From Prochlorococcaceae cyanobacterium jk18x1bzbins.87 (GTDB lineage Bacteria; Cyanobacteriota; Cyanobacteriia; PCC-6307; Cyanobiaceae): DNA of 46,344 nt. A program made the translations under genes and the position numbers. The notes beneath the pieces are model-generated. The model was not told where the DNA came from. It was given only the letters and a program-made list of their open reading frames with translations, and made no database searches. This document shows, piece by piece, positions 31,381-39,286 of the stretch (the stretch's first letter is position 1; each line of letters starts with the position of its first letter). The stretch lies in assembly GCA_022826535.1 (NCBI GenBank), contig JAJDUS010000127.1, positions 1 to 46,344 on the forward strand. The letters run 5' to 3'.

Positions 31381-32540
<1,160 letters not shown>

Positions 32541-32567
32541 ACAGGCTCTGATGACAAAAACCTGATC

Positions 32568-32594
32568 AAAGGGCGTCCTGGTGGCGCCTTTTTT
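32568..32594 (+). terminator. Rho-independent terminator after cpeBA
   Basis: AAAGGGCG pairs with CGCCTTT (one bulged G) around a loop of about nine bases, and the T-run TTTTTT follows. It lies 28 bp after the cpeA stop and before cpeZ. It could end most cpeBA transcripts or attenuate read-through into cpeZ. Confidence 0.7.
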
Positions 32595-32644
32595 GTTGCC
32601 TTGCAGGCGCCTATTCTGCCTTTCTCGACCCCTGGCCCATAGCT

Positions 32645-33238
32645 TTGGATGACCTTTTCGACCAACTCCGTCACCCCAATCCCAATATGCGGTCACGGGC
32701 CACGGTGGCCCTGGCCCAGAGTGATGATCCAACCGTGGTGTCCCGGTTGATGGCCATGCTCAGTGAGCCGGACATTCCCTTGCGCCGTTCCGCCGTGAAA
32801 GCCCTTGGCACAGTGGGAGAGCGGGCCGTGCATCCCCTGACGGAACGCCTGGCCGGCACCGACGATCTCACCATTGGCTCCAGTTGTTGCAAAGCCCTGG
32901 CCCAGGTTGCGGACCAGTGGGTGGGGCTGCAATTTCCTGATGCCACCTTGGATCTGCTGTGCCGCAAGGCCCTTGAACCCAATCCTGTGGTGCAGATCAC
33001 CGCTGTGATGGCTCTGGGGGAGATGGGTGAGTCCGCCCTGCCACGGCTGCAGAAGATTTTGCGGGAAGGAGATGTGGCGGTTCAAGTGGCCTGCATCAAC
33101 GCCTTGGCGGGATTGGGCCTGGATGCTGCCCAGGCGGATCTGCAAGCCCAGGCGGCCAATGGGACGGCTGATGCCTATGTGCGGGAATCTGCCACAGCCG
33201 CCCTGGCCCGCTGCTCCATGGCTAAGACCCGGTCCTGA
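32645..33238 (+). CDS. cpeZ: Phycoerythrobilin lyase/chaperone CpeZ (HEAT repeats)
   Basis: 197 residues of HEAT-like repeats. The start MDDLFDQLRHPNPNMRSRAT uses a TTG at 32645 with no clear ribosome-binding site. VKALGTVGERAVHPLTERLA, CKALAQVADQWVGLQFPD, VQITAVMALGEMGESALPRL and VRESATAALARC follow the CpeZ pattern and length. CpeZ works with CpeY and CpeF in attaching phycoerythrobilin to phycoerythrin subunits. It overlaps the convergent CpeF-like gene by 17 bp at its 3' end. Confidence 0.85.
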   Translation: MDDLFDQLRHPNPNMRSRATVALAQSDDPTVVSRLMAMLSEPDIPLRRSAVKALGTVGERAVHPLTERLAGTDDLTIGSSCCKALAQVADQWVGLQFPDATLDLLCRKALEPNPVVQITAVMALGEMGESALPRLQKILREGDVAVQVACINALAGLGLDAAQADLQAQAANGTADAYVRESATAALARCSMAKTRS

Positions 33239-34139
33239 TGTCATCTTCGGAGCCCGTCTCCAGACTGCGTCGCAACTGGGTGGTGGCCAGCGCCAACACG
33301 GCGGCCAGGGGACCATCCCCTTCCCGTCGCTGCGCCCTCTCCAAGGGGGGTAAACCAGCTCCATTGCGGCACTTCATGAGGGCCAGGGCGCCATTTTTGC
33401 GCACCTCCAAAGACGGGCTCTCCAAGCTGGCCGCCAACACGGGAATGAATCGGGGATGTTGCAGCTTGCCAAAGGCGGTGACAGCCTCTGCCTGCACCTC
33501 TTCCGATGGATCCTTGAGGGCTTGGTGAAGCAGGGTGAGGGCCTCCTGGTCATCGCTGTTTTGAATCTGGTCCCCCAATGCCCCCACAACGGCGCATCGC
33601 ACATCCACCAGGAGCGACTCCATGGCAGGCCGCAACTGCTCAGCCCCCCGCGCCCCAATGCTGGCCAAGGCCCAAGCCGCCAAGCCCTTACAAAAAGCAG
33701 TGTACTGAGGATCCTCCAAGATGCCCAGCAGCAGGGGCACGGCCCCGCCGCCCAACTCGGCTAAGGCGCCAGCAGCCGATCCCTGCACCACCGGATCCGG
33801 ATCTTCTGTCAAGGCCTCCCCCAATGTGGCCATGGACTTTGAATCCTTGATCAAGGTGAAGGTTTTGGCAGCGGCCCGCCGTACAGCCACGTTCTCGTGG
33901 TCCCGCAGGGCATGGCGCAAAAAGGGTGCGGCGGGCAGGCCAATGGCGGCAAGTCGTTCGGCAAAGCCAAACCGCACCAATCCCCGCTGATCCCCCAGGC
34001 CCTCCACCAGCCGGGCCAGGATTGTCCCGTCCTGGTCAGGGAACACCCCTGCCGCCAACTGGGCACTCACCGCAGCCAGCAACATGTCATTGTCTTCGGC
34101 GGAGAATGCCGTGCCCCCTGCCTGCCCTGTCCCTGCCAT
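33222..34139 (-). CDS. cpeF: HEAT-repeat bilin lyase, CpeF/MpeU-like
   Basis: 305 residues of HEAT-like repeats, such as GLVRFGFAERLAAIGLPAAP, FLRHALRDHENVAVRRAAAK, DPDPVVQGSAAGALAELGGG, DVRCAVVGALGDQI and DPSEEVQAEAVTAFGKL. The repeat number, length and position between cpeZ and cpeY fit the CpeF (MpeV)/MpeU branch of lyases, which attaches bilin to the beta subunit at Cys50/61. An NblB-like protein or another E/F-type lyase is possible, because HEAT lyases are hard to tell apart by eye. It is transcribed opposite to cpeZ and cpeY. Confidence 0.6.
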   Translation of the reverse strand: MAGTGQAGGTAFSAEDNDMLLAAVSAQLAAGVFPDQDGTILARLVEGLGDQRGLVRFGFAERLAAIGLPAAPFLRHALRDHENVAVRRAAAKTFTLIKDSKSMATLGEALTEDPDPVVQGSAAGALAELGGGAVPLLLGILEDPQYTAFCKGLAAWALASIGARGAEQLRPAMESLLVDVRCAVVGALGDQIQNSDDQEALTLLHQALKDPSEEVQAEAVTAFGKLQHPRFIPVLAASLESPSLEVRKNGALALMKCRNGAGLPPLERAQRREGDGPLAAVLALATTQLRRSLETGSEDDIRTGS

Positions 34140-34214
34140 TGCTCATCATGCCTGCCCCCAACATTGTGGCGCGCCTCCAGGCCCCAATGGGCAGCGGGAT
34201 CCGGGTAGGGGAGA

Positions 34215-35516
34215 ATGACCCCCTGCACCAGCATTACCGTGGACCCGACCCGTTTTCAGAACCTGTTTCCAGGCTTCAGCCAGGCAGAGGCTTTGGCCAC
34301 GCTGCGGAAGCCCCTGGAGGAGTTGGAGGATGTGAGCGACCGCTACCTGGCCGCTGCCCATCTGGTGAACTTTCCCGATGAGCAGACCATTGCGGCGCTG
34401 ATAACCTGCGCTGCTGATGGTCACCCTGCCCAGGCCCAGCGCATTGCCCGGCGTAAAGCGGTGGAAAGCTTGGCCCGCTTGGGGGCCCGGCAGGCGTTGC
34501 CCGTGATTCAAGACTGCCTGAGAAATGAAGACACCTATTTAGTGGAGAATGCCGTCTGGGCGCTGGCCGAGTTGCAGGCCCAGCCGGAAGCTGTCACGGA
34601 TGCCCTGCTGCAACTGTTACAGGATGGACGACAGAACCGCCGGGTGGTGGCCCAAACCGCTGCCCGTCTGGGAATTCAGGAGGCCATTGCTCCTCTGGAA
34701 GCGCTACGGCAGGAGAAAGATCCCCTCCTGGTTACAGCAGCCACCACCGCCGTGGCGCAACTGACCGGCAACAGGGAGGCCCTCCCCGCCCTGGAAGGCT
34801 ACCTGCGCCATCCGGATGTGACCGTACGCCGCGGGGTCATTCAGGATTTGATGGATGCCCAAGCTTTCGGGGCCTTGGCGGCCATTGCGGCGGCGCCGGT
34901 GTCACCGGTGTTTCGTTTGCGGGGTGTGCGTGCCCTGGCGGATCAACAATACCAGCGGGGCATTGTCCAAGCCGAGGGGCTGTTGCCGCTGGTGGATCAG
35001 GTCCTGCGGGATGATCCGGGCACCATCACCCTGGTGCATCGCTATGATGCCACGCCAAGCCTGGACTTTCTGGTGCAGGAACTCTATGGCACAGATTTCG
35101 GGCGTGTCTACCTGGCTGTGGCCACCCTCATGGCTTCCCCCAAGGCCGCCACGCTGGCGGCCTTGACCCGGAGCTTTGCGGATAAGGGGTGGAACGACTA
35201 CGGGGCCCACTACCACATGATCAAACTCTTTGGCTGGCTAGGGGATTCCCAACCTGTATCCCTGGTATGGGACGCCCTGGCCAATCGCCGCCCCCAGTTT
35301 CAAAAATCCCGTCCGGCGGCGGCCCTGACATTGGCCCGTCTGGACCCCCAGCAGGCGGGACCGGCACTGCAAGACGCCGCCTGTGAAGGGTCCTTCTGGG
35401 AGCTGCGCTACGCTGCCCTCATGGGCTTGGAACAGTTGGGGCTGCCGGTCCCGCTGGGCTCCCTGGCGGATGCGGATTGGCTGGTGGCCCTGCGGGCCAG
35501 ATCCCATGGGGAATGA
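34215..35516 (+). CDS. cpeY: Phycoerythrobilin lyase CpeY (HEAT repeats)
   Basis: A 433-residue HEAT-repeat protein of the CpeY length. The N-terminal FQNLFPGFSQAEALATLRKP and VSDRYLAAAHLVNFPDEQTI, repeated RRKAVESLARLGARQALPVI, and C-terminal GTDFGRVYLAVATLMASPKA with DYGAHYHMIKLFGWLGDSQP match CpeY/MpeY-type lyases. CpeY attaches phycoerythrobilin to Cys82 of the alpha subunit; close relatives can instead be lyase-isomerases. It is divergent from the CpeF-like gene across 75 bp, which should hold both promoters. Confidence 0.85.
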   Translation: MTPCTSITVDPTRFQNLFPGFSQAEALATLRKPLEELEDVSDRYLAAAHLVNFPDEQTIAALITCAADGHPAQAQRIARRKAVESLARLGARQALPVIQDCLRNEDTYLVENAVWALAELQAQPEAVTDALLQLLQDGRQNRRVVAQTAARLGIQEAIAPLEALRQEKDPLLVTAATTAVAQLTGNREALPALEGYLRHPDVTVRRGVIQDLMDAQAFGALAAIAAAPVSPVFRLRGVRALADQQYQRGIVQAEGLLPLVDQVLRDDPGTITLVHRYDATPSLDFLVQELYGTDFGRVYLAVATLMASPKAATLAALTRSFADKGWNDYGAHYHMIKLFGWLGDSQPVSLVWDALANRRPQFQKSRPAAALTLARLDPQQAGPALQDAACEGSFWELRYAALMGLEQLGLPVPLGSLADADWLVALRARSHGE

Positions 35517-35589
35517 ACAAGCACAAAACACGATTTCCGGGTCAGGGCAGGGGCTAACGGGCTGCCAAGGTCAAGAATGCCTCTTGCCA

Positions 35590-35690
35590 TCGGCCGGCTT
35601 TGCCCACGCCAGGTTCCCAAGGCTTGCGTGGGGGCAGGGCAGAACGGATAGGAACGGCTTCAAGCTTGCTTCACGGTAGTGATAGCCTCC
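35590..35690. repeat. Repeat copy 1, downstream of the coiled-coil gene
   Basis: A segment nearly identical to 36256-36345: CCGGCTTTGCCCACGCCAG, CAAGGCTTGCGTGGGGGCAG and GGCTTCAAGCTTGCTTCA occur in the same order and spacing. It lies immediately beyond the stop of the coiled-coil gene (minus strand). Read on the minus strand its end spells LLEAITTVKQA and a stop, equivalent to the C-terminus of the second copy. Confidence 0.85.
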
Positions 35691-35700
35691 AATAAACGGC

Positions 35701-36153
35701 CTATTTCTCCCCCAGGGCTCTGTTGTCAGTCCTCAGTGCTTTGACGTCAGCCCTGATCCCATCGATCCGCTGGGCCTGCCTGGCCTCGCTGGCCTTCAGC
35801 TCATCCCTGGTCCTGGCCTCACTAGTTCTGACCTCTTCCTTGACTTCATCAATGCGTTGGTTGATCTGTTCAGTGAGCCGAGTATCGGTGGCCCTGATCT
35901 CTTCATGAAGCTGGGCGTTGCCGACCTTGATCTGTTCACTGAGACGGGCATTGCCATCCCTGATGTCAGCCCTCAGAGACTCAAAAGACCCCATCCAGAC
36001 ATTGGCCACCAGGATCACGCCCCCCACCAGGAGGCTGACCACCACCGCCACAATCGGCTTCAACCATTCCCGCCACCAGGACCCTTGCTTGTGTCCACCA
36101 GGTGTCGCCTGGTCCTGGGGCTCAATCTTTGGCGTTGGCGTGCTGGAGGTCAT
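35701..36153 (-). CDS. Membrane-anchored coiled-coil protein
   Basis: A 150-residue protein from ATG 36153. A polar N-terminal stretch is followed by WWREWLKPIVAVVVSLLVGG and VILVANVWMGSF, one membrane helix (about 33-55). Then comes a long charged helix with regular R/E/Q spacing (RLSEQIKVGNAQLHEEI, TRLTEQINQRIDEVKEEV, DELKASEARQAQRIDGI), a probable coiled coil on the other side of the membrane. The C-terminus is RTDNRALGEK. A broken paralogue lies 170 bp upstream. The family is unknown to me; it recalls variable accessory proteins. Confidence 0.65.
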   Translation of the reverse strand: MTSSTPTPKIEPQDQATPGGHKQGSWWREWLKPIVAVVVSLLVGGVILVANVWMGSFESLRADIRDGNARLSEQIKVGNAQLHEEIRATDTRLTEQINQRIDEVKEEVRTSEARTRDELKASEARQAQRIDGIRADVKALRTDNRALGEK

Positions 36154-36255
36154 GGGGAGAAGTAACCCAAACGCATCTTAAGTCAGCCCCATCATTCCCA
36201 CCGCCTTCATCCCTCCCGCAACAGGGGAAATCCACCCCTCCCATCGGATTGGCAC

Positions 36256-36345
36256 AGGCCGGCTTTGCCCACGCCAGATCCCCAAGGCTTGCGTGGGGGC
36301 AGGGCAGAATGGTCGAACGGCTTCAAGCTTGCTTCAGGGTAGCAA
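36256..36345. repeat. Repeat copy 2, in the 3' end of the second coiled-coil copy
   Basis: The counterpart of 35590-35690 with a few substitutions. Here the terminal part is coding in the damaged copy (C-terminus EAIATLKQA), whereas in copy 1 it is beyond the stop codon. Together they show that the duplication covers the gene and about 70 bp downstream. Confidence 0.85.
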
Positions 36346-36605
36346 TGGCCTCCTGGGCCTGCCTGGCCTCGCTGGCCTTCAGCTCATCCCTGACCCTGGC
36401 CTCACCGGCTTTGATCTCTTCCTTGACTTCACCAATGGGCTGGTTGATCTCTTCAGCGAGCCGGGCAGTGCCATCCCTGGTGTCAGCCCTCAGAGACTCA
36501 AAAGACCCCATCCAGACATTGGCCACCAGGGTCATCCCCCCCCACCAGGAAGCTGACCACCGCCACCACCACAATCGGCTTCAACCATTCCAGCCACCAG
36601 GAGGG
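36323..36605 (-). pseudogene. Truncated, frameshifted copy of the coiled-coil gene
   Basis: Minus-strand frames give SWWLEWLKPIVVVAVVSFLVGG-like sequence, then after a frame change MTLVANVWMGSFESLRADTR, EEINQPIGEVKEEIKAGEAR and VRDELKASEARQAQEAIATL, ending KQA. The frame change sits in a run of eight G (C on plus, 36536-36543); seven would restore the frame. The first ~25 residues of the intact paralogue are missing and a TGA precedes the homology. It is a relic unless the run is a sequencing error and a non-standard start is used. Confidence 0.7.
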
Positions 36606-37196: not shown

Positions 37197-38261
37197 TCAC
37201 CCTAGAAACCGGTCCAGAAGCTGCTGATGGCAGCGGTTCTGCTGGCGGTGCCGGGTCAGATGGGCCGGAGAGAGGCGCCACCGCCTGGCCTGCTCCCATG
37301 CGCCTGGCAGGCCGGCGAGCCCGTTGGGATCCGCCAGGTTGATGGATGGAATGGCCATGGCGGTGACCGCGGCATCCACTTTGGGGTCATAGCTGAGGGC
37401 CAACAGGGGCCGATCCGCCATGGCCGCCAGGATCATCCCATGGAGCCGCATGGCCACCACCAAGCCCACAGGCGCGAGACCTGCCATAAAGTCCCAGGGG
37501 GTCCGGGGGCGCCAGAACCGGCACACCAGACCAGCCTCCTGGAGCCGCACCGCACACACCTTGAGCAAGGGAGTGTCCTGGTGGGCATGGAAAGGCGCCA
37601 GGTAGACGGGAGCCTGGTGGCGTCTGGCATCGTTAATCACCTGGTTCTCCAGTTGGCGCCAGCCAGCAGCACTCAGCAGGGGGGTGGGTCTCCAGCACAG
37701 GCAGATGGCACCTGCAGTGGGGCCATCGGTGAGGTCAGGGTTGTGCCGCCGGGGAAGGGACCACACCGGATCTCGACCCACAGGGGCGCGAATGCCCCAG
37801 GCAGCGGCCATGGCGGCTGATTGCTCATCACGCCATGTGATGCCCTGGACCAGATGGAGGCTCAATCGGACCAGGAGACGGCTGGTGCAGGCATTGAGCG
37901 GCCCCAGACCTTGGGCCCACAGCAGGACGGGGCGCCCCAGGAGACGGGCGGCCAGGATCAGGGCCATGTAATAGAGAAGGCTGCGCCGGCTGGTGCTGTC
38001 CTGCAGCAGACTCCCCCCTCCCAGCACCAACACCCGGACACGCACCAGGGCCAGCAGGAGGCTGATGGGCTTGCCCCGGGGGCAGGTGGCCACACCAAAT
38101 TGCTCCCGCACCTGTTGTTGGTCCCGTGCTGTGGCCACCACAGGGCAGGAGGGGGGCAGGAGGGCCAGCAGCGTGGCCAAGAGAGCATCATCCCCAAGGT
38201 TGTGCTCGCCGTAATAGCCGCAGAGGAGCACCCTGGAGCCAGGCTTGGTGGGCTTGGTCAT
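37197..38261 (-). CDS. csaB: Polysaccharide pyruvyl transferase CsaB
   Basis: A 354-residue enzyme that adds pyruvyl ketal groups to cell-surface polysaccharide; in other bacteria this anchors SLH-domain S-layer proteins. ATG 38261 gives MTKPTKPGSRVLLCGYYGEH, then NLGDDALLATLLALLP, the family start. VLVLGGGSLLQDSTSRRSLL, WRDEQSAAMAAAWGI, VVAMRLHGMILAAMADRPLL and LSYDPKVDAAV are the known conserved segments. The gene ends at the border with the IS982 remnant, but its C-terminus looks complete. Confidence 0.9.
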   Translation of the reverse strand: MTKPTKPGSRVLLCGYYGEHNLGDDALLATLLALLPPSCPVVATARDQQQVREQFGVATCPRGKPISLLLALVRVRVLVLGGGSLLQDSTSRRSLLYYMALILAARLLGRPVLLWAQGLGPLNACTSRLLVRLSLHLVQGITWRDEQSAAMAAAWGIRAPVGRDPVWSLPRRHNPDLTDGPTAGAICLCWRPTPLLSAAGWRQLENQVINDARRHQAPVYLAPFHAHQDTPLLKVCAVRLQEAGLVCRFWRPRTPWDFMAGLAPVGLVVAMRLHGMILAAMADRPLLALSYDPKVDAAVTAMAIPSINLADPNGLAGLPGAWEQARRWRLSPAHLTRHRQQNRCHQQLLDRFLG

Positions 38262-38323
38262 GGCTCCATGTCCCATGGTCCGGTTGCAGGGCACACCGGA
38301 CACATCATCATTTGGGCGGCCCA

Positions 38324-39286
38324 TCAGCAGGCCGTGAGCAGCTTGGCCATGAGTTCCGGTAGCCAGTGGTCATCGGCGGCGCTGGCTACCCCTTCCCCCA
38401 GCACCGCCACAATGGTGGGTCTGCAGTGGGGAGATTCCACATAGGCCACATCAGCCCGGGCAGTGCTCATCCAGCCAGCCTTGCTCCAGAGTTGACTGCC
38501 TTCAGGCAGGGCCGCCCCAAGAAAGCCATCCACCTGGTTTTCAGGATCCGCCAAGCGGGTTTCCGAATCCAGGGCACGCTCAAGTTGCTGACGCATGTGG
38601 GCGCTGGCCACCGGGGAGATCAGCTCACCTGCCATGATGGCATGGAGGAAGCGGGCCATGGCGTCACTGCTGAGGCGGTTGCGGTTATCCTGCTGGGGAC
38701 CATAGAATTGCTTTTCCCGTCCGTAGGGTCCCTCCTCCCAGGTTTTCTGGCAGCAGTTGCAGTGCTGCAACTCAGGCCAGCCTTGCTCTTGCAGCCACTG
38801 ATTCACCAGTTGCCGCTGCCGTTGCCACGTCATGTAGGCATCTCCAGAAAGCTCCGGGCCGCTGGTGGTGCCGCTAAGGGCATCTACCACATAGGATGTG
38901 GCATCGTTGCTGGAGTGACCAATCATGGCCACAGTGGCCCGCTCCAGCTCCACTGTGCGCCGTAGGAGACCCTGGGCATACCAGGCCTCCAGGGCTGCCA
39001 TATACACCAACTTCACCACACTGGCGGGGTAACAGGGAGTTCCGCCGGCGTGGCTGGCCCCTGCCACTGGCAAGGCCCAGAACTCCTGGCTGGAGAGTTG
39101 GGCCGCTTGATGGATCAGGCTCTGCCCATAGCGCAACCAAGTGATGGAAACTTGTCGCCTTAGCCATGGTCGATGCTGTTCCAGATCCTTCAGGCTGGCT
39201 TGCAGGTGCTCCTGCAATGCCCAATGGTTGGTATAGAAGGCCAAGGCTCCCGTTGAGCAAACTGGGTGGCAGCGTACCGACTCCAT
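38324..39286 (-). CDS. Class A beta-lactamase-like serine hydrolase
   Basis: About 320 residues from ATG 39286; a later TTG at 39244 is an alternative. The acyl-enzyme motif SxxK is SVVK (Ser89, in CYPASVVKLVYMAA). An SxN-type motif follows in GHSSNDATSYVVD, and a KxG motif near the end (SKAGWMST). No clear signal peptide is seen. The protein may act on peptidoglycan or a related substrate instead of conferring resistance. It is followed by csaB after 62 bp on the same strand, and is divergent from the NlpC/P60 gene with start codons only 8 bp apart. Confidence 0.75.
   Translation of the reverse strand: MESVRCHPVCSTGALAFYTNHWALQEHLQASLKDLEQHRPWLRRQVSITWLRYGQSLIHQAAQLSSQEFWALPVAGASHAGGTPCYPASVVKLVYMAALEAWYAQGLLRRTVELERATVAMIGHSSNDATSYVVDALSGTTSGPELSGDAYMTWQRQRQLVNQWLQEQGWPELQHCNCCQKTWEEGPYGREKQFYGPQQDNRNRLSSDAMARFLHAIMAGELISPVASAHMRQQLERALDSETRLADPENQVDGFLGAALPEGSQLWSKAGWMSTARADVAYVESPHCRPTIVAVLGEGVASAADDHWLPELMAKLLTAC

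Follow-up and report, generated by a model that had tools for sequence, protein, structure and literature searches.

A probable hybrid, truncated gene in a family of small membrane-anchored coiled-coil proteins from one cyanobacterial genus

Introduction

In coiled coils, stretches of 7, 11, and 18 residues make up whole turns (2, 3, and 5, respectively), and the insertion of 4 residues converts a heptad to a hendecad (PMC4786415). Among the closest precedents for the genes considered here are the DUF16/UPF0134 (RepMP1) proteins of M. pneumoniae, which likewise form many paralogues in one lineage. Their coiled coil differs between strains by tandem units of 21 nt (7 amino acids), transmembrane segments are predicted in some of them, and a hybrid gene, mpn138/7, combines the 5' part of one gene with the 3' part of another as a result of recombination (PMC3472980). 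The Bdr proteins of Borrelia, another of the closest precedents, are multicopy proteins of unknown function with imperfect direct repeats, the number of which differs between otherwise near-identical orthologues, and their genes are located on plasmids or prophages (PMC3303823).

The window analyzed here is a stretch of 46,344 nt, contig C121 of a draft cyanobacterial genome (G000; 2.49 Mb in 145 contigs), and it contains two neighboring copies of a gene for a membrane-anchored coiled-coil protein. Copy 1 is best explained, at a probability that we put at about 0.75 for the explanation as a whole, as a hybrid of an anchor-I 5' half and an anchor-II 3' half that was joined within the coil and later truncated.

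Results

Copy 1 belongs to a large, previously undescribed family of small membrane-anchored coiled-coil proteins, found so far in one, probably sponge-dwelling, cyanobacterial genus only. To judge from its family, its genome size, and the phycoerythrin-type genes in the window, this genus may be Ca. Synechococcus spongiarum. Its members keep the anchor and usually the tip, and the coil between the two varies by whole units of 7 and 11 residues. Searches with anchor-I and anchor-II/III profiles found about 23 family places in G000 and matches in 10 of the 10 genus genomes examined; in the family-wide search, the anchor-I profile matched all 7 of 7 genus genomes. None of 144 genomes from 58 other genera of the same taxonomic family matched the anchor-I profile, and among 244 cyanobacteria across the phylum the anchor-II/III profile matched only the window's own genome (0 of 243 others). 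Copies are many in most genomes of the genus and few in the smallest ones and in G001, a 1.7-Mb genome (95% complete) that is nearly without the family (2 and 1 matches to the two profiles). Eight of the 23 places in G000 lie less than 500 bp from a contig end, where 5.8% would be expected (binomial P = 3e-5); the contigs with family places near their ends are C131, C120, C72, C45, C23, C134, and C36. This concentration implies that the family's repeats break the assembly, so copy number is uncertain.

A conserved neighborhood was sought around copy 1. The bilin-lyase-like gene (34215 to 35516) and the pyruvyltransferase-like gene (37197 to 38324) each occur in sister genomes where copy 1 is not their neighbor, and family members adjoin the pyruvyltransferase-like gene in G004 only. 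The adjoining region from 31393 to 35516 contains putative phycoerythrin-like subunit genes and HEAT-repeat lyase-like genes, as recognized by eye in the translations.

Copy 1 encodes 150 amino acids on the minus strand and ends in RIDGIRADVKALRTDNRALGEK (Table 1). It has the family's N-terminal hydrophobic anchor, followed by a coil of 7- and 11-residue units. The tip of the anchor-I/II class (DNRALxEKLDRLLE-LxAxK) is interrupted by a stop after DNRALGEK, and copy 1 is classed as a truncated family member because the tip is present only downstream, out of frame. The earlier note had described this open frame and, beyond its stop, LLEAITTVKQA and a further stop, matching the end of copy 2, and it was correct in this; past the TAG, the segment and its TGA are read in another frame. 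Copy 2 ends in EAIATLKQA and a TGA, and the two tails together with about 70 bp of 3' flank are 87% identical over 107 bp (E about 1e-33), far above chance. The account of copy 2 had to be revised on two points: it is a pseudogene, and its alignable part begins near 36602 rather than at 36605. Relative to copy 1, its 66-nt deletion amounts to two 33-nt coil units, and its 80-nt deletion took out RIDG..GEK plus the frameshift site. A G-run in the anchor (36530 to 36545), which could be a slippage tract, has eight G residues in copy 2 against six in copy 1 and shifts the frame of copy 2. Copy 1, copy 2, and a paralogue on C131 are 88 to 92% identical. A terminator or structured RNA was sought in the 3' flank of copy 1, where the predicted fold was no better than those of shuffled sequences.

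Table 1 Features of the two copies and of the hybrid, by position in the window
Feature	Position	Strand	Remarks and basis
Copy 1 CDS	35701..36153	-	Disordered N-tail followed by a single TM anchor and a coiled coil; the TAG at 35701-35703 is premature; ORF and AF2 model
Predicted TM segment, about residues 34-52, IVAVVVSLLVGGVILVANV	35998..36054	-	Best 19-residue Kyte-Doolittle window, mean 2.76
Frameshift site GAGAAATAG	35701..35709	-	One base fewer than GAGAAAATGGACC of a paralogue; likewise C131 GAGAAGTAGACC; DNA comparison
Out-of-frame ancestral C-terminal tip (..LLEAITTVKQA, TGA)	35660..35700	-	DNA comparison
3' flank of copy 1	35585..35659	-	Duplicated along with the gene; also 3' of two C86 anchor-II genes and of decayed tips at C138 and C125
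Copy 2 pseudogene, same hybrid type as copy 1	36323..36602	-	Start region missing, anchor frameshift, 66-nt and 80-nt deletions
3' flank of copy 2	36249..36322	-	87% identity to copy 1 3' flank
5' part of hybrid: upstream bases, N-tail, anchor, first coil residues	35925..36191	-	blastn 77% over 283 columns to anchor-I C136
Junction zone of the two parents, about 2 hendecad units of coil	35865..35924	-	C136 homology stops at 35925; anchor-II homology from 35864
3' part of hybrid: remaining coil, tip, 3' flank	35585..35864	-	blastn 67-77% to anchor-II C86, C72, C47, C120

In the AF2 model of copy 1 (monomer only; mean pLDDT, 78.9; pTM, 0.37), residues 1 to 25 are unstructured and residues 26 to 149 form one continuous helix. 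The hydrophobic segments and their flanking charges point weakly to a position outside the cytoplasmic side for anchor-I coils and, more strongly, to an inside position for anchor-III coils. Family proteins would be membrane-fixed oligomeric rods, the reach of which would be determined by the count of 7- and 11-residue units and the tip of which would make contacts; a function as membrane-anchored coiled-coil rods of evolvable length is what we infer.

Coding sense is preserved among other, related family members, nine pairs of which gave dN/dS values of 0.07 to 0.35; the comparison of copy 1 with C131 gave 0.59 (bootstrap interval, 0.32 to 1.17). This truncated pair appears less constrained, and relaxation is only suggested because its value overlaps those of some intact pairs. 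The pair may be in the process of losing function, and loss of the tip in copy 1 would probably weaken the role of the tip, whatever that is. It is conceivable, if rather less than an even chance, that both copies are functionless decaying duplicates and that repeat recombination produced the hybrid incidentally: the dN/dS interval includes 1, copy 2 is broken, and the locus is absent from sister genomes, but copy 1 remains open over 150 codons with its anchor and coil intact. The frames of copy 1 and C131 are intact despite 12 to 14% nucleotide divergence, so the short form could still work, which counts against an explanation by a hybrid followed by decay.

Changes in coil length follow the periodicity of the coil. 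In 37 disjoint related pairs, 37 of the 38 indels of 5 to 25 amino acids after the anchor have lengths of the form 7i+11j, which is the form of a third of all the lengths in that range (P = 6e-17); among the shorter indels, length 4 (11-7) is the commonest. L053 and L066, which are probably orthologues, differ by -11 and +21 residues and are otherwise 92% identical. A subfamily consisting of L045 (C139), L168, L170, and L210, with the anchor RPWLEPAVVVAVIG and the tip VYQLLLPK, is composed of RMDTLG/RIDALG heptads and hendecads.

In a table of anchor against tip kinds based on regular expressions, a sketch in which 33 fragments carry no anchor call, the two are tightly linked in most kinds: among classified members, anchor I occurs with tip class c only, Ib with d, III with a2, and VI with a; three tip classes occur with anchor IV and two with anchor V. 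Two anchor-IV genes, L127 of G009 and L125 of G004, are 93.5% identical over 185 nt (upstream region and anchor), unalike for about 110 nt, and similar once more (90% and 84%) across the final codons and a 3' flank of 280 nt, which by alignment is a real C-terminal replacement on one anchor. The anchors and 3' flanks of L127, L197, and L198 (G009) and L125 (G004) are closely alike, with three different segments ahead of the shared last residues QPVTPER. The earlier suggestion of a family that diversifies its coiled coil through variable ends on a constant anchor is therefore retained in part: the coil does vary, mainly in how many 7- and 11-residue units separate an unchanging anchor from a tip that is usually constant, and true tip replacement occurs in a sister subfamily. 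A bolder and doubtful reading, for which the window gene and the sister-species anchor-IV genes would be the examples of new anchor-tip combinations, sees, across the genus, a combinatorial repertoire of about ten anchor kinds, few tip kinds, and unit-adjustable rods that recombines in the coil and varies host-interface structures.

The two halves of copy 1 have different relatives. Its 5' part, including 37 bases 5' of the ATG, matches the anchor-I gene C136 and has no blastn match in anchor-II genes; its 3' part matches anchor-II genes and has no blastn match in C136. Anchor-II homology covers everything beyond about residue 96, and the switch lies inside the coil; the simplest reading of this pattern is that an anchor-I and an anchor-II gene recombined there. 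The exchanged C-terminus proposed in the earlier note thus has a counterpart, located further upstream, in the junction zone, where the remaining coil, tip, and 3' flank would have been swapped together. In a tree of the last 105 nt, copy 1 and C131 are nested in the anchor-II clade (support, 98/91); an AU test of the alternative in which all anchor-I 3' ends form a single clade was borderline (p = 0.054; 108 columns).

That no exchange occurred, the 3' halves of anchor-I and anchor-II genes being alike by common descent or genome-wide gene conversion and C136 being the gene that changed, is unlikely. The class c tips are all distantly alike and the AU value is compatible with this history; however, copy 1 has a tip that most resembles anchor-II tips, whereas C136, with an anchor related to that of copy 1, retains the tip LDRVLETLLAARA, as in sister-species anchor-I genes, the tips of which are its closest relatives. 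Moreover, the 3' flank accompanies the anchor-II type, and gene conversion spanning the 3' half would amount to an exchange. The draft state of G000 (145 contigs), in which repeats may have been misassembled, counts against the hybrid explanation.

The tail beyond the stop is accounted for by a deletion of one base. In paralogues of this genome, a single frame spans both pieces (C-terminal ends: C86, LRADNRALGEKMDRLLEVLVTVKQT; C47, LRADNRAIGEKMDHLLDTLATVKQT; C72, LRADNKVLGEKIDRLVEIFATVKPA), and a paralogue C-terminus containing both RIDG..DNRALGEK and LLEAITTVKQA reads ..DNRALGEKMDRLLEVLVTVKQT; RIDG..GEK and LLEAITTVKQA are therefore one C-terminus, cut in copy 1 by a 1-nt deletion. The same deletion, at the same place, is observed in its closest paralogue, C131, and yields the stop; the DNA around the site is GAGAAAATGGACCATTTATTGG in C47, GAGAAATAGGCCGTTTATTGG in copy 1, and GAGAAGTAGACCATTTATTGG in C131. 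Judged by these comparisons, the tail is the gene's own former end, not one displaced by a new segment. Continued production of the tip by a programmed -1 frameshift at AAA/AAG-TAG is very improbable: such a shift in copy 1 would restore K-I-G-R-LLEAITTVKQA, and the arrangement is preserved in two genes (copy 1 and C131), but an X_XXY_YYZ slippery heptamer is absent at the site in both copies, C131 has AAG in place of AAA, and most family members need no shift. The claim of the earlier note that copy 1 had gained a new C-terminal segment ahead of an old end, now a fossil, has the match of the out-of-frame tail to the end of copy 2 on its side and next to no likelihood, being contradicted by C47, C86, and C72, which carry both pieces in one frame and in the same order, and by the clean deletion through which copy 2 lost the middle piece.

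Discussion

If copy 1 is a hybrid, recombination in the repetitive coil, with the coil repeats as possible mediators, would have joined an anchor-I 5' half to an anchor-II 3' half comprising the coil end, tip, and flank. The hybrid would then have been duplicated, giving rise to C131 and the tandem copy 2, a 1-nt deletion common to copy 1 and C131 would have cut off the conserved tip of 14 to 15 residues, and copy 2 would have decayed.

The genes represent an undescribed family, not found in relatives, that is multicopy in most genomes of a single cyanobacterial genus and in which two kinds of change can be read directly: coils longer or shorter by 7 or 11 residues at a time, and hybrid genes with their junction in the coil. 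Should the proteins act where the cells meet a host, they would offer a candidate, open to testing, for symbiosis-specific variation; otherwise, they would still provide a clean natural series on how a coiled coil changes length without loss of register. Were the combinatorial reading true, the family would give these cyanobacteria a means of varying host-interface structures.

Searches of Pfam, PHROGs, and NCBIfam gave generic coiled-coil likenesses only, with no curated family above its cut-off among the matches listed, and none of the papers covered by a literature search mentioned Ca. Synechococcus spongiarum together with coiled coils. The CCDC90-like family (PF07798) resembles the present one as a membrane-anchored coiled-coil stalk with a weak profile match (copy 1, 18.9 bits; Pfam gathering cut-off, 33.5); its anchor is at the opposite end. 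The best match to Apolipoprotein A1/A4/E (PF01442), by A3 member 1, reached 35.1 bits against a gathering cut-off of 90 and reflects a chance resemblance between 11-residue amphipathic helices. Neither copy 1 nor copy 2 matched the DUF16 profile of Pfam at E values up to 1, and the sole match on the DUF16 side was a weak coiled-coil likeness to MPN010 (E = 0.0024), with no family-level match.

The membrane segment of Borrelia Bdr proteins is at the opposite end from that of the family described here. Bdr, compared solely through its description in the literature, resembles the family in its variation of repeat number (PMC3303823). With DUF16/RepMP1, the family shares a coil that changes by whole units as well as hybrid genes. 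Its units are of 7 and 11 amino acids and vary between species and paralogues, whereas those of DUF16 are of 7 amino acids and vary between strains, and, unlike DUF16, it has a conserved tip and several kinds of N-terminal membrane anchor. It is a lineage-specific coiled-coil family that changes by units and by recombination, as is already known from DUF16/RepMP1.
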